NCBI RefSeq assembly: GCF_013294015.1
Contig: NZ_JABSNO010000004.1
Coordinates: forward strand, 109,468 to 173,467
Direction of reading: 5' to 3'
Origin: Frigoriflavimonas asaccharolytica
Lineage (GTDB): Bacteria > Bacteroidota > Bacteroidia > Flavobacteriales > Weeksellaceae
DNA: 64,000 nt
Below the pieces are notes generated by a model. It saw only the letters and a list, made by a program, of their open reading frames with translations. It was not told the origin of the DNA and made no database searches. Both the position numbers and the translations under genes were made by a program. Positions within the stretch are counted from its first letter, which is position 1, and the number at the start of each line of letters is the position of its first letter. This document shows positions 16,784 through 39,666 of the stretch, piece by piece.

Positions 16784-16806
16784 ACCACAAAAGTAACAAA
16801 AGTGAC
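16784..16806. repeat. ACCACAAAAG-type short repeat, copy 1
   Basis: ACCACAAAAGTAACAAAAG followed by TGAC; a close variant occurs at 19334-19360. It also forms the outer left arm of the inverted repeat at 16787-16910. Confidence 0.55.
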
Positions 16807-16910
16807 AATAGATTAAGTTTTTTAAAAGGTAAAAAAAGCAATACTTGAAATGCATGCTTATTTTACCTTTTGCTAATCTGATTTTTTCCATTATCTTTTG
16901 TTACTTTTGT
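16787..16910. repeat. Composite inverted repeat upstream of the rhodanese gene
   Basis: The outer arms ACAAAAGTAACAAAAG (16787-16802) and CTTTTGTTACTTTTGT (16895-16910) are perfect reverse complements over 16 bases. The inner arms at 16824-16840 and 16855-16871 match at 16 of 17 positions with a 14-base loop. The whole unit of about 124 bases looks like a small MITE-like or REP-like palindrome. It fills the gap between queG and the rhodanese gene, and its right arm carries the rhodanese promoter element. Confidence 0.75.
16902..16909 (+). promoter_or_regulatory. -7 promoter element for the rhodanese gene
   Basis: TACTTTTG matches the TAnnTTTG consensus and lies 19 bases before the ATG at 16929. 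It sits inside the right arm of the inverted repeat. Confidence 0.5.
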
Positions 16911-16928
16911 AGTAGAAAAATAAATATT

Positions 16929-19333: not shown

Positions 19334-19360
19334 ACCACAAAGTGACAAAAGTGACAAAAG
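19334..19360. repeat. ACCACAAAG-type short repeat, copy 2
   Basis: ACCACAAAGTGACAAAAG followed by a further GTGAC-type unit. It resembles 16784-16806, differing by a few bases, and includes an internal tandem GTGACAAAA. Confidence 0.55.
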
Positions 19361-36918: not shown

Positions 36919-38169
36919 ATGAAATCATTTGTAAATTATACGGAAGAATCTGACTTTTCTATACACAACGTTCCATTCGGAGTTGCAGTTTTTAATCAAG
37001 AATATATTGCTTGTGCCACGAGAATTGGCGATATGGTTTTGGATCTTGCCACATTATACGATTACGGATTTTTAGAAAACATTGATGGTTTGAATGAAAA
37101 TGTGTTTGAAGCCTACACTTTAAATGAATTCATAGAACTCGGAAAACCTGTAACGAATGCTGTTCGCGAGAAAATTCAGCAATTATTACTAGAAGGTTCT
37201 TTGCTTTCTAAAGATGAAAAAAGCATAGAAGATTGCTTCTTTGATTTGGATCAGGTGAAAATGATGATGCCCGTTCATGTTCCCAATTATACAGATTTCT
37301 ATAGCAGTATAGAACATGCAACCAACGTGGGATCTATGTTTCGCGATCCTGCAAATGCACTTTTACCAAACTGGAAACACATTCCGGTTGGATATCATGG
37401 CAGAGCTTCTTCCATCGTTATTTCTGGGACAGATTTGCATAGACCAAAAGGACAAACGAAACCAGCAGACATGGATAAACCAATTTTTGGACCCTCTAAA
37501 CAACTAGATTTCGAATTGGAAATGGGCTTCATCATCAATCAAAATACCGAAATGGGAACTTCTATTTCTGTAGGAGATGCAGAAGATTCTATTTTTGGAA
37601 TGGTTTTGTTTAATGATTGGTCTGCAAGAGATATACAAGCTTGGGAATACGTTCCACTTGGACCATTTTTAGCAAAAAATTTCGGGTCTACAGTTTCACC
37701 TTGGGTGGTGACTTTAGAAGCATTAGCACCATTTAGAGCTTCTTCACCGAAACAAGATCCTGAAGTTTTGGATTATCTAAAATTTGAGGGAAACAAAAAT
37801 TTTGACATCAATCTTGAAGTATTTTTACAACCAGAAAACGGTGAAGAAAACCTCATCGCACAAAGCAATTTCAAATACATGTATTGGAATATGGCGCAAC
37901 AATTAGCACATCACACCATAAATGGTTGCAACGTGGAAGTTGGAGATTTGTATGCATCGGGAACCATTTCTGGTAAAGAAAAAGATTCTTACGGATCTAT
38001 GCTAGAATTAACGTGGAGAGGTACAAATCCTATTCAATTAAAAGATGGAAGCGAGAGAAAATTTATTGATGATAACGATACGATTATCATGAGAGGTTTC
38101 GCGGAAAAAGATGGATTGAGAGTTGGTTTTGGGGAAGTTTCTGGGAAGATATTGGCTGCTAAACCATAG
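36919..38169 (+). CDS. fahA: Fumarylacetoacetase
   Basis: 416 residues. It splits fumarylacetoacetate to fumarate and acetoacetate, the last step of tyrosine breakdown. An N-terminal SH3-like domain is followed by the catalytic FAH fold: metal ligands lie in DFYSSIEHA, the QLDFELEMGFI strand (Glu pair) and NDWSARDIQAWEY. YHGRASSIV and the C-terminal GTISGKEKDSYGSMLELTW complete the site. In frame with hppD and hmgA as a pathway set. No maleylacetoacetate isomerase gene is seen in the window. Confidence 0.95.
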   Translation: MKSFVNYTEESDFSIHNVPFGVAVFNQEYIACATRIGDMVLDLATLYDYGFLENIDGLNENVFEAYTLNEFIELGKPVTNAVREKIQQLLLEGSLLSKDEKSIEDCFFDLDQVKMMMPVHVPNYTDFYSSIEHATNVGSMFRDPANALLPNWKHIPVGYHGRASSIVISGTDLHRPKGQTKPADMDKPIFGPSKQLDFELEMGFIINQNTEMGTSISVGDAEDSIFGMVLFNDWSARDIQAWEYVPLGPFLAKNFGSTVSPWVVTLEALAPFRASSPKQDPEVLDYLKFEGNKNFDINLEVFLQPENGEENLIAQSNFKYMYWNMAQQLAHHTINGCNVEVGDLYASGTISGKEKDSYGSMLELTWRGTNPIQLKDGSERKFIDDNDTIIMRGFAEKDGLRVGFGEVSGKILAAKP

Positions 38170-38203
38170 TTTATTTTTACCACATTCTTTAACTGTACTT
38201 TTT

Positions 38204-38284
38204 TAACCACATTAGTTTCTTTTTTTTTAGCGTTTTATTTTAGTTAGCATTAGTTCACATAAGTTTTAAAATCAGAGATTTTTA
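38204..38284. repeat. Left inverted repeat flanking the GxxExxY gene
   Basis: Contains CCACATTAGTTTC, then CATTAGTTCACATAAGTTTT (38248-38267) and AAAATCAGAGATTTTTA (38268-38284). The latter two are the near-exact reverse complement of 38801-38820 and 38743-38759 respectively. Confidence 0.75.
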
Positions 38285-38295
38285 TATATGAAATT

Positions 38296-38733
38296 ATGGA
38301 AATTACACAGAAATTTATTAACGAACTAACATATAAAATAACGGGAGCATGTATTGAAGTTCATAAAATACTTGGTCCCGGTCTTTTAGAGAATGTCTAT
38401 CATCAGTGTTTGAAGAAGGAATTCTCACTTCTAAATTTAAGAACTAAATCCGAATTAGAAATACCATTAGATTACAAAGGTGAAATTGTAGATTACAAAG
38501 GTGAAATTGTAGATTGCAAAGTAAAATGCGATTTCTTAATTGAAGATTTGATTATTCTCGAATTAAAATCTGTTGTAGAATTTCACGATATTCATCGAGC
38601 GCAAACTTTGAATTACATGAATTTACTAAAAGTACCTAAAGGAATTCTTATAAACTTCAATGTCAACAATCTATATCACGAGGGACATGAAACTTTTGTT
38701 AATAAATACTTTTCTAATTTGCCTAAAAATTGA
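38296..38733 (+). CDS. GxxExxY protein, PD-(D/E)xK nuclease-like
   Basis: 145 residues. The eponymous motif is Gly29-LL-Glu32-NV-Tyr35, and the nuclease-type signature follows: Asp79, then Glu89-L-Lys91 (ILELKSV). This family belongs to the PD-(D/E)xK nuclease superfamily, function unknown; it is often dispersed in Bacteroidetes genomes. Here it sits in the tyrosine catabolism region between imperfect inverted repeats, suggesting an inserted mobile unit. A seven-residue segment (DYKGEIV) is present twice in tandem, next to the likely active-site region. Confidence 0.87.
   Translation: MEITQKFINELTYKITGACIEVHKILGPGLLENVYHQCLKKEFSLLNLRTKSELEIPLDYKGEIVDYKGEIVDCKVKCDFLIEDLIILELKSVVEFHDIHRAQTLNYMNLLKVPKGILINFNVNNLYHEGHETFVNKYFSNLPKN
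38470..38511 (+). repeat. In-frame 21-base tandem duplication within the GxxExxY gene
   Basis: Two exact 21-base copies (38470-38490 and 38491-38511), each encoding DYKGEIV, followed by a third partial copy encoding D-C-K. It lengthens a loop before the catalytic Asp79. Confidence 0.9.
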
Positions 38734-38741
38734 AATCTAAA

Positions 38742-38820
38742 TTAAAAATCTTTGATTTTGAAAACTAATGTGAAACTAAATATCCTCAAGATAAATAACT
38801 AAAAACTTATGTGACTAATG
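38742..38820. repeat. Right inverted repeat flanking the GxxExxY gene
   Basis: TAAAAATCTTTGATTTT and AAAACTTATGTGACTAATG reverse-complement the left copy, with an extra stretch of about 40 bases between them. Its last three bases form the ATG at 38818, arguing that the next gene starts instead at 38839. Confidence 0.75.
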
Positions 38821-38838
38821 CTTCAAAAAAATTCCAAT

Positions 38839-39666
38839 ATGAAATCCATCAATATAAAAGACCTTAATAATTTTGAATTGCAAACACTTTTGCAGACAGC
38901 TGTTGCACCACGTCCGATTGCTCTTGCATCTACCATTGATAAAGATGGAAATGTAAATCTATCGCCGTTTAGTTTTTTTAATCTTTTTAGCAGTAATCCT
39001 CCGGTTTTGATATTTTCTCCAGCAAGAAGAGTCCGAGATAATACCACCAAACACACGTTAGAGAATGTGTTGGAAGTTCCAGAAGTCGTTATTGGTAACG
39101 TGAACTTTGAAATGGTGCAGCAAGTTTCTCTGTCTTCTACGGAATATGAAGATGGCGTGAATGAATTTGTGAAAACAGGACTAACCATGAAACCTGCAGA
39201 TTTGATAAAACCACCTTTAATTGTAGAAAGTCCAGTAAACATGGAATGCAAAGTTCTGGAAGTGAAATCTTTAGGACCTAATGGTGGTGCTGGAAATTTG
39301 GTAATTTGTGAAGTTGTAAAAATTCATGTGCGAGAAGAATTTTTAAATGAAAATGGAAATTTAGATCAAACAAAACTGAATTTAGTTTCTAGATTGGGTA
39401 GTAGTTGGTATGGAAAAACCTCGGTAGACACACTATTTGAAGTCCCAAAACCATTGCAAAAGAAAGGAATTGGCTATGATCAACTACCGCAATCGATAAA
39501 AAATTCTAAAGTTTTTACCGGTAATGATTTGGGAATGCTCGCCAATGTGGAGGAATTGCTGAAAGGCAACTTTTCTGCTGATGAGAAAATCCATTTTGAA
39601 GCCCAAAAACTTTTACTAGAAAGTAAAACTGCCGAAGCTTGGAAAATTTTGAATTCGAATAATTAA
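38839..39666 (+). CDS. Flavin reductase family protein (FMN-binding split barrel)
   Basis: 275 residues from the ATG at 38839 (MKSINIKDLNNFELQ); the in-frame ATG at 38818 lies in the inverted repeat and is rejected. The split-barrel FMN region reads RPIALASTIDKDGNVNLSPF with the SFFNLFSSNPP loop. Such reductases supply FMNH2 or act as oxygenase partners; members are commonly linked to aromatic or tyrosine degradation clusters. The ATG of the next gene overlaps its stop by one base. Confidence 0.87.
   Translation: MKSINIKDLNNFELQTLLQTAVAPRPIALASTIDKDGNVNLSPFSFFNLFSSNPPVLIFSPARRVRDNTTKHTLENVLEVPEVVIGNVNFEMVQQVSLSSTEYEDGVNEFVKTGLTMKPADLIKPPLIVESPVNMECKVLEVKSLGPNGGAGNLVICEVVKIHVREEFLNENGNLDQTKLNLVSRLGSSWYGKTSVDTLFEVPKPLQKKGIGYDQLPQSIKNSKVFTGNDLGMLANVEELLKGNFSADEKIHFEAQKLLLESKTAEAWKILNSNN

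Follow-up and report, generated by a model that had tools for sequence, protein, structure and literature searches.

The question raised by the locus at about 38.2 kb in the window, the 64,000-nucleotide stretch of the 3.43 Mb genome of Frigoriflavimonas asaccharolytica analysed here, is whether a small gene lying between two inverted repeats forms one system with them and, if so, what that system does. The earlier note, made from the letters alone, had described the locus as a self-spreading unit that carries a nuclease rather than a transposase. The gene (38296-38733, plus strand) encodes a protein of 145 aa with a PD-(D/E)xK nuclease fold and the catalytic-type residues E32, D79, E89, K91, Q103 and Y107. 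This protein scores well above the curated cut-offs of both TIGR04256 GxxExxY (122.2 bits; cut-off 35) and PF13366 PDDEXK_3 (118 bits; cut-off 22) and contains the G-x-x-E-x-x-Y motif as well as the D...ExK residues, which places it in the family. Across 81 aligned GxxExxY sequences, Glu32, Tyr35, Asp79, Glu89, Lys91, Tyr107, Asn120 and Phe121 are invariant and Q103 is nearly so; Asp79 and Glu89-x-Lys91, which the earlier note had named, are therefore confirmed as family-wide features. At E 0.001, PDDEXK_3 is the only Pfam family matched by the protein, Transposase_17 is not matched, and the search of Pfam and NCBIfam returned no transposase family. No function has been assigned to GxxExxY genes in the literature searched, and it is the active-site residues that point to a putative nuclease activity.

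The structure predicted from the 81-sequence alignment reached a pLDDT of 93.5 and was used in place of a discarded single-sequence prediction (pLDDT 32). In a Foldseek search with this model, no solved structure reached E 0.001; the best match was SSO0001 (4ic1; E 0.026), a Cas4 protein. The same chain was the sole one at Z ≥ 8 in a structural aligner (Z 9.7, rmsd 3.0 over 101 residues), while Wolbachia CinA-CinB matches (Z 7.8) lie inside the range that the tool rates as common. At the sequence level, the match to SSO0001 is weak (E 0.22), and the PADLOC Cas4 model gives E 0.0098 for the window protein and 8e-5 for a second family member (L225). The order E32, D79, E89, K91, Q103, Y107 is that of the RecB/Cas4 motifs. 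QxxxY is a motif of Cas4/RecB-type nucleases, and Q103 and Y107 stand in that spacing, so that the protein resembles this group in both fold and active-site order. Cas4 proteins have four conserved cysteines that bind an iron-sulphur cluster; in contrast, no cysteine is found among the invariant or nearly invariant columns of the 81-sequence alignment, and the GxxExxY protein, lacking conserved cysteines for such a cluster, is also smaller. Within the window gene, an exact 21-nt tandem duplication (38468-38488 and 38489-38509) adds seven residues, DYKGEIV, without counterpart in the other 14 rows of a smaller protein alignment (A1), and is probably recent. In three genomes of one genus, the GxxExxY match lies within an open frame of 883 aa (G110:C9:91044, G122:C22:338277, G138:C1:72354), possibly a fusion.

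The gene is enclosed by two imperfect inverted arms. The left arm (38205-38284, plus strand) reads inward as AACCACATTAG, GCATTAGTTCACATAAGTTTT and the small palindrome AAAATCAGAGATTTT (38268-38282), and includes the words CACATTAG (38208-38215), CATTAG (38248-38253) and CACATAAG (38256-38263). Similar words stand on the opposite strand in the right arm (38743-38829, minus strand), where the small palindrome TAAAAATCTTTGATTTT (38743-38759) is followed by the minus-strand words CACATTAG (38772-38765) and GCATTAGTCACATAAG (38821-38806). A repeat search returned the inverted matches 38264-38284/38743-38763 (21 nt, 90%) and 38255-38267/38802-38814 (13 nt, 100%), and the gapped alignment of 38224-38284 with 38743-38805 scores 24.5, above the maximum of 17.0 among 5,000 shuffles, which bears out the inverted repeats that had been proposed. 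The right repeat had also been described as overlapping the start of the neighbouring gene; this holds only for the mechanical open-reading-frame start at 38818, whereas the likelier start of the flavin-reductase-like gene (38839-39666, plus strand) is the ATG at 38839, beyond the arm.

Two further places in the window had been thought to carry similar words. The first is a gene-less inverted-repeat element with the word ACAAAAG (16784-16913; halves 16784-16840 and 16855-16913), whose score of 22.0 exceeds the maximum of 14.5 among 2,000 shuffles; the second is a single arm, ACCACAAAGTGACAAAAGTGACAAAAG (19334-19360, plus strand), with no partner seen in the stretch read. The layout is the same as at 38.2 kb, but the words differ: alignment scores against the 38.2-kb arms are only 7 to 13.5, and shared words were accordingly rejected. 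The ACAAAAG word resembles the arms of two other units (L018 and L038) and, as judged by eye, is clearly present in none of the seven GxxExxY units of this genome; the 16.8-kb element may be an orphan or may mark a unit that has since been lost. A mixture of both word types was observed elsewhere (G073, L211, about 1430-1600), in a gene-less element with outer words ACAAAAG and the inner word CACATAAG.

Regarding the age of the unit, its site lies between fumarylacetoacetase (TIGR01266; 36919-38169, plus strand) and the flavin-reductase-like gene, here called the fah locus. In a fumarylacetoacetase tree of 18 rows, the nearest row to that of the window is Halpernia frigidisoli, at 77% identity. 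Of the 17 closest named loci (L076-L092), 16 have the GxxExxY gene between the two neighbours, which indicates that it is largely inherited with the host there. Among 29 fumarylacetoacetase loci of relatives, the flavin reductase is also present in 19, and the gene lies between them in three of these (one broken) and is missing from 16. Taken together, these counts suggest that the unit is old at this site, where the GxxExxY gene is retained across several genera, and that it has been gained or lost rarely. At the same time, relatives with this pair of neighbours differ in whether they have the gene, so gene and flanks are not equally conserved at this locus. Two relatives with no GxxExxY match between fumarylacetoacetase and flavin reductase (L061 and L055) have gaps of about 490 and 660 nt there, while the other gene-less relatives have gaps below 200 nt. 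An apparently inverted gene orientation in one genome (G035) was dropped, as all four units there share one orientation. Concerted evolution of the two arms was not found beyond the word itself among 14 fah-locus units: mean similarity is 24.5 within and 18.6 between units, and the unit's own partner is the best match in 2 of 14.

Inverted arms are a general property of GxxExxY genes, and not a peculiarity of the fah locus. The two 250-nt flanks of each gene were compared for their best inverted match, and a locus was counted as arm-flanked when the score of this match exceeded those of all 200 shuffles. Arm-flanked loci make up 22 of 35 in the window's own genome and its relatives (set 1: L009-L045, 37 loci without the duplicates L013 and L015), 36 of 41 named loci of Kaistella, Chryseobacterium, Flavobacterium and kin (set 2: 42 loci, one of them, L115, with too short a flank), and 14 of 28 in a phylum-wide draw (set 3: L225-L253, 29 loci without L245, a duplicate of L029), the latter being the best-scoring loci and not a random draw. 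Control genes passed far less often: 1/172 distant ORFs, 2/77 adjacent ORFs, 2/58 window ORFs and 2/45 in a further control set. The three sets overlap in some genomes (L017 and L077 being the same locus) and in many orthologous sites, and the genomes are related, so that the counts are not independent. In the window's own genome, five of the seven GxxExxY genes are arm-flanked, L014 narrowly, while L010 and L012 fail. A lack of repeats next to other copies of the gene, which the earlier note had named as refuting its reading, is thus not what was observed.

Other phyla were sampled by single plasmid loci, five of the seven plasmid matches being read (Persicobacter and Prevotella were left out). 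Arms above the shuffle maximum were found for Gemmatirosa (57.5 vs 14.0), Bernardetia (18.0 vs 14.5) and Bacteroides (22.5 vs 13.5), and scores below it for Sphingomonas (8.5 vs 13.0) and Treponema (11.0 vs 13.5). The reading frame of the Gemmatirosa gene (L118, about 1750-2600) is shifted, which makes the gene end used for its flank approximate; its long arms consist of CGCAGAG words with inner hairpins, and the unit may be broken or decayed. As a separate observation, GxxExxY units recur between what we take, from the flank letters, to be the C-terminus of a miaB-like gene and the start of a sigma-54-regulator-like gene (L110, L111, L113, L042), a gap that is possibly an insertion hot spot for such units.

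The arms mostly follow a common plan, in which a short T/A run precedes two or more copies of a word, often at intervals of 8 to 11 nt. The plan is shared by the Gemmatirosa, Bernardetia and Bacteroides units. The words vary across units and include CACATTAG/CACATAAG, CACTTWAG, CATATAAG, CACAAAAG, CACAGAG, CGCAAAG, CACGAATT, CACAGATT and CATTAAG; even the units of the window's own genome carry different words when compared by eye, L012 showing none clearly. When tandem words beginning with C, then A or G, then C were counted, they were found in either flank of 26/28 units of set 3 (7/178 control genes) and in both flanks of 15/28 (1/178). The corresponding numbers for sets 1 and 2 are lower (14/35 and 22/42 for either flank, six and six for both), partly because CATATAAG and CATTAAG fall outside this definition. 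Reverse-oriented tandem words in either flank were counted in 7/35, 6/42 and 13/28 units of sets 1, 2 and 3, respectively, and in 6/178 controls, so that words facing outward are likewise commoner near units than near control genes.

The same kind of repeat occurs without the gene. The left arm of the window's unit has matches of 76-87% identity elsewhere in the same genome, two small tandem arrays among them, and tandem arrays of repeat copies also appeared in the word-pattern searches. A Chryseobacterium gene-less copy consists of two arms placed back to back around a small palindrome (about 145 nt), and a Flavobacterium copy measures about 85 nt. When a gene-less copy was folded as DNA, only 1 of 200 shuffles equalled or surpassed it (z -3.45). 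For 72 dispersed places, which include some units' own arms and overlapping loci, the midpoint fell within a long open frame in five, compared with 2,657 of 3,600 positions drawn at random from these loci. The dispersed component is mainly the gene-less repeat, not the gene. In one metagenome-assembled genome (L089, 3500-4900), a relative of the window's unit lies within a formate-dehydrogenase-like cluster, the neighbours being presumably formate-dehydrogenase subunits as named from their translations, with tandem arm arrays on both sides.

If the gene and the dispersed repeats are connected, the word of the repeats should follow that of the resident unit. The word patterns were sought in one panel of 47 genomes. 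A fah-locus unit is present in 16 of these; another 14, from Flavobacterium or its near kin, had been reached by way of their GxxExxY loci; the last 17 are relatives belonging to the window's family, 14 with no GxxExxY match and three with other GxxExxY genes. A reversed-pattern control gave at most four matches per genome across the CACATWAG, CACTTWAG and CATATAAG searches. Pairs of CACATWAG, some of them the units' own arms (as also for the generic pattern below), were matched in 11 of the 47 genomes. Each of these 11 has a fah-locus unit with the same word, and the 31 genomes outside the fah-unit group gave no match. The four genomes whose unit bears CACTTWAG in both arms (L082, L084, L085, L091) contain 11, 7, 11 and 6 CACTTWAG pairs, of which two per genome belong to the unit itself, and CACATWAG pairs are missing from all four; K. 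solincola is the fifth of the 16 fah-unit genomes without a CACATWAG pair. Between one and three CACTTWAG pairs each were also found in seven genomes outside this group (in G027 the reversed control was equal). The CATATAAG pattern is confined to 12 of the 47 genomes, all Flavobacterium or a Flavobacteria MAG; it is absent from 2 of the 13 genomes with a Flavobacterium-type unit, and F. filum, whose fetched unit has CACGAATT arms, has two copies. The dispersed copies thus largely carry the word of the resident unit, and the three words are mostly separate over the 47 genomes; the match is strong, not absolute. Because the four CACTTWAG genomes form one clade, they represent a single word switch, which affected both arms and dispersed copies alike; independent switches were considered and rejected.

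A broader comparison points in the same direction. In the phylum draw, a GxxExxY gene was found in 59 of 118 genomes, often several per genome. The generic pattern AACCRCARAG-(1 to 3)-CRCARAG was present in 31 of the 59 positive genomes and in 1 of the 59 negative ones (G141, two copies), the reversed control giving 0. The negatives are the 118 genomes minus the 59 positives (39 are not listed by name), and the gene and pattern draws were judged from the genome labels to cover the same 118. With kinship ignored, the Fisher p value is 9e-11, or 9e-8 without one negative-rich family. The 28 positive genomes in which the pattern is missing may use differing words. Furthermore, arm similarity and protein similarity are correlated over 4,031 pairs of units at different loci (r = 0.34; none of 1,000 permutations as high). 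This comparison covered 93 units, after removal of L017, L039, L086, L114, L116 and L245 and of units with stops, with fewer than 105 aa or with flanks below 250 nt. Collectively, GxxExxY genes are associated both with arms and with dispersed repeats.

Evidence for gain or loss of the gene-less elements was obtained at individual sites. C. tagetis, C. mucoviscidosis and Chryseobacterium sp. ZHDP1 lack the element found at the L134 site of C. gambrini; in Chryseobacterium sp. BGARF1, a related element with the outer word ACAAAAG is present there, placed out of register in the multiple alignment. At one Flavobacterium site, two species have two elements each and a third has a single, shorter one. 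No target-site duplication was read at the L134, L147 and L181 sites, where the alignment is fuzzy or the breakpoints lie inside repeats, so that unequal recombination could explain part of the differences; alignments of seven close locus pairs contained no arm-bearing indel. The search for empty sites with target-site duplications, proposed as a check in the earlier note, has consequently returned differences in presence or size, but no clean junction. Beside the element at L147, a further stretch of about 115 nt (1216-1334) was observed, which recurs in dozens of places in Chryseobacterium genomes. As for the self-spreading unit proposed at the outset, a nuclease-like gene in place of a transposase, inverted arms, and like arms elsewhere and at other GxxExxY genes all speak for it, but the gene does not look recently mobile here; the proposal is only partly supported, since the unit is old at the fah locus and no target-site duplication was resolved.

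Arms at the gene and gene-less arms scattered between genes of the same bacterium make the nuclease and the repeats look like the two halves of one system. Such a system has a precedent: a RAYT gene is placed between two inverted REP copies, with gene-less REP pairs or clusters dispersed in the genome, a genome can hold several distinct single-copy RAYT genes, each with its own repeat flavour, and repeat and protein diversity co-vary (PMC2817692, PMC3116915). By analogy, the GxxExxY gene with its arms would be the master unit of a short dispersed repeat family, as RAYT is for REP/REPIN, a reading to which we assign a probability of roughly 0.6. The likeness extends to the gene between two inverted repeats, which controls rarely show, and to a repeat that is dispersed without the gene and largely matches the resident one. 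The unit beside tandem arm arrays in L089 recalls the REPIN clusters that adjoin RAYT genes (PMC3116915). There are also differences: GxxExxY belongs to the PD-(D/E)xK nucleases, whereas RAYT is a tyrosine transposase of the IS200/IS605 kind; the repeat consists of words in tandem with a palindrome on the inner side, a gene-less pair measuring about 85-145 nt; and the arms, inspected by eye, lack a GT(A/G)G head and have a T/A run and C-words instead.

Two other classes of element share part of this architecture. Insertion sequences and MITEs likewise carry inverted ends on both sides of a gene and have versions with similar ends but no gene. The GxxExxY unit, in contrast, matches no transposase of a known class; at the sites of the gene-less elements no clean junction was obtained and no target-site duplication could be read. 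Homing endonucleases are free-standing nuclease genes, present or absent at a fixed site. Those of the PD-(D/E)xK type, e.g. I-Bth0305I, resemble GxxExxY in these respects and I-Bth0305I gave a weak Foldseek match to the model (E 1.6), whereas the GxxExxY unit is intergenic, with inverted arms and dispersed gene-less copies. In the literature searched, mostly outside subscription journals and preprints, no link between GxxExxY and a repeat was found, and prior work may exist.

The association could also arise if another enzyme moved the repeats and GxxExxY genes merely inserted into them or rode on them as passengers. The lack of a transposase match for the window protein fits such a role, and no PD-(D/E)xK nuclease is known to move DNA alone. 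This view is difficult to reconcile with the near absence of the generic repeat from GxxExxY-negative genomes (1/59), with the tracking of protein similarity by arm similarity at different loci, and with the rarity of such arms around other ORFs (1/172), and we consider it unlikely. A nuclease domesticated by the host would account for the RecB/Cas4-type fold: the words would serve it as marks, for a Chi-like stop or start of end processing, for fork repair or for nucleoid order, and selection would keep the repeats. Consistent with this, searches with one query found the family in only 7 of 72,556 plasmid records and in none of 50,697 phage records, and the gene is retained at the fah locus across several genera. 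Its patchy presence in half of the drawn genomes (59/118), together with broken copies (L053 and matches with stops), up to 12 matches in one genome and the tandem arrays of copies, is hardly what such a function would predict, and domestication is in our judgement quite improbable.

An explanation at the RNA level deserves the least credence. According to it, the arms would form a long transcript hairpin that guards or processes the GxxExxY mRNA, much as rRNA intervening sequences have stems, and the dispersed copies would be unrelated terminators. The inverted arrangement and the better-than-shuffled folding of the gene-less copy agree with it, but the same words recur in gene-less copies elsewhere, no Rfam family is found within 38100-38900, and words recur in direct tandem within an arm; this explanation is accordingly very improbable.

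Returning to the master-unit reading, a possible course of events can be outlined. The GxxExxY protein would bind the tandem words of the arm, perhaps as an oligomer, and its Cas4/RecB-like active site would nick or trim the arm DNA near the inner palindrome, probably in hairpin or cruciform form. Replication and repair by the host could then copy the freed or broken end to another place or join it there. Since no transposase or recombinase family is matched by the single protein that the unit encodes, strand transfer would have to be supplied by the host or by end-driven copying. In its strong form, namely that a stand-alone Cas4-like nuclease, and not a transposase, spreads a class of bacterial dispersed repeats by cutting or trimming arms of its own word, which the host then copies, the proposal is tentative, its chances falling somewhat below even.

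Short intergenic repeats are common and mostly unexplained. The tie between gene and repeat gives the GxxExxY family a testable role and the repeats a candidate source, and it suggests that repeats may spread by nuclease rather than transposase chemistry. The match between word and protein lineage constitutes natural variation from which the DNA specificity of these proteins may be mapped. If the proposal is true, it would provide a source for the CACAAAG/CACAGAG/CGCAAAG-type tandem repeats of the phylum and, judging by single loci, of others.
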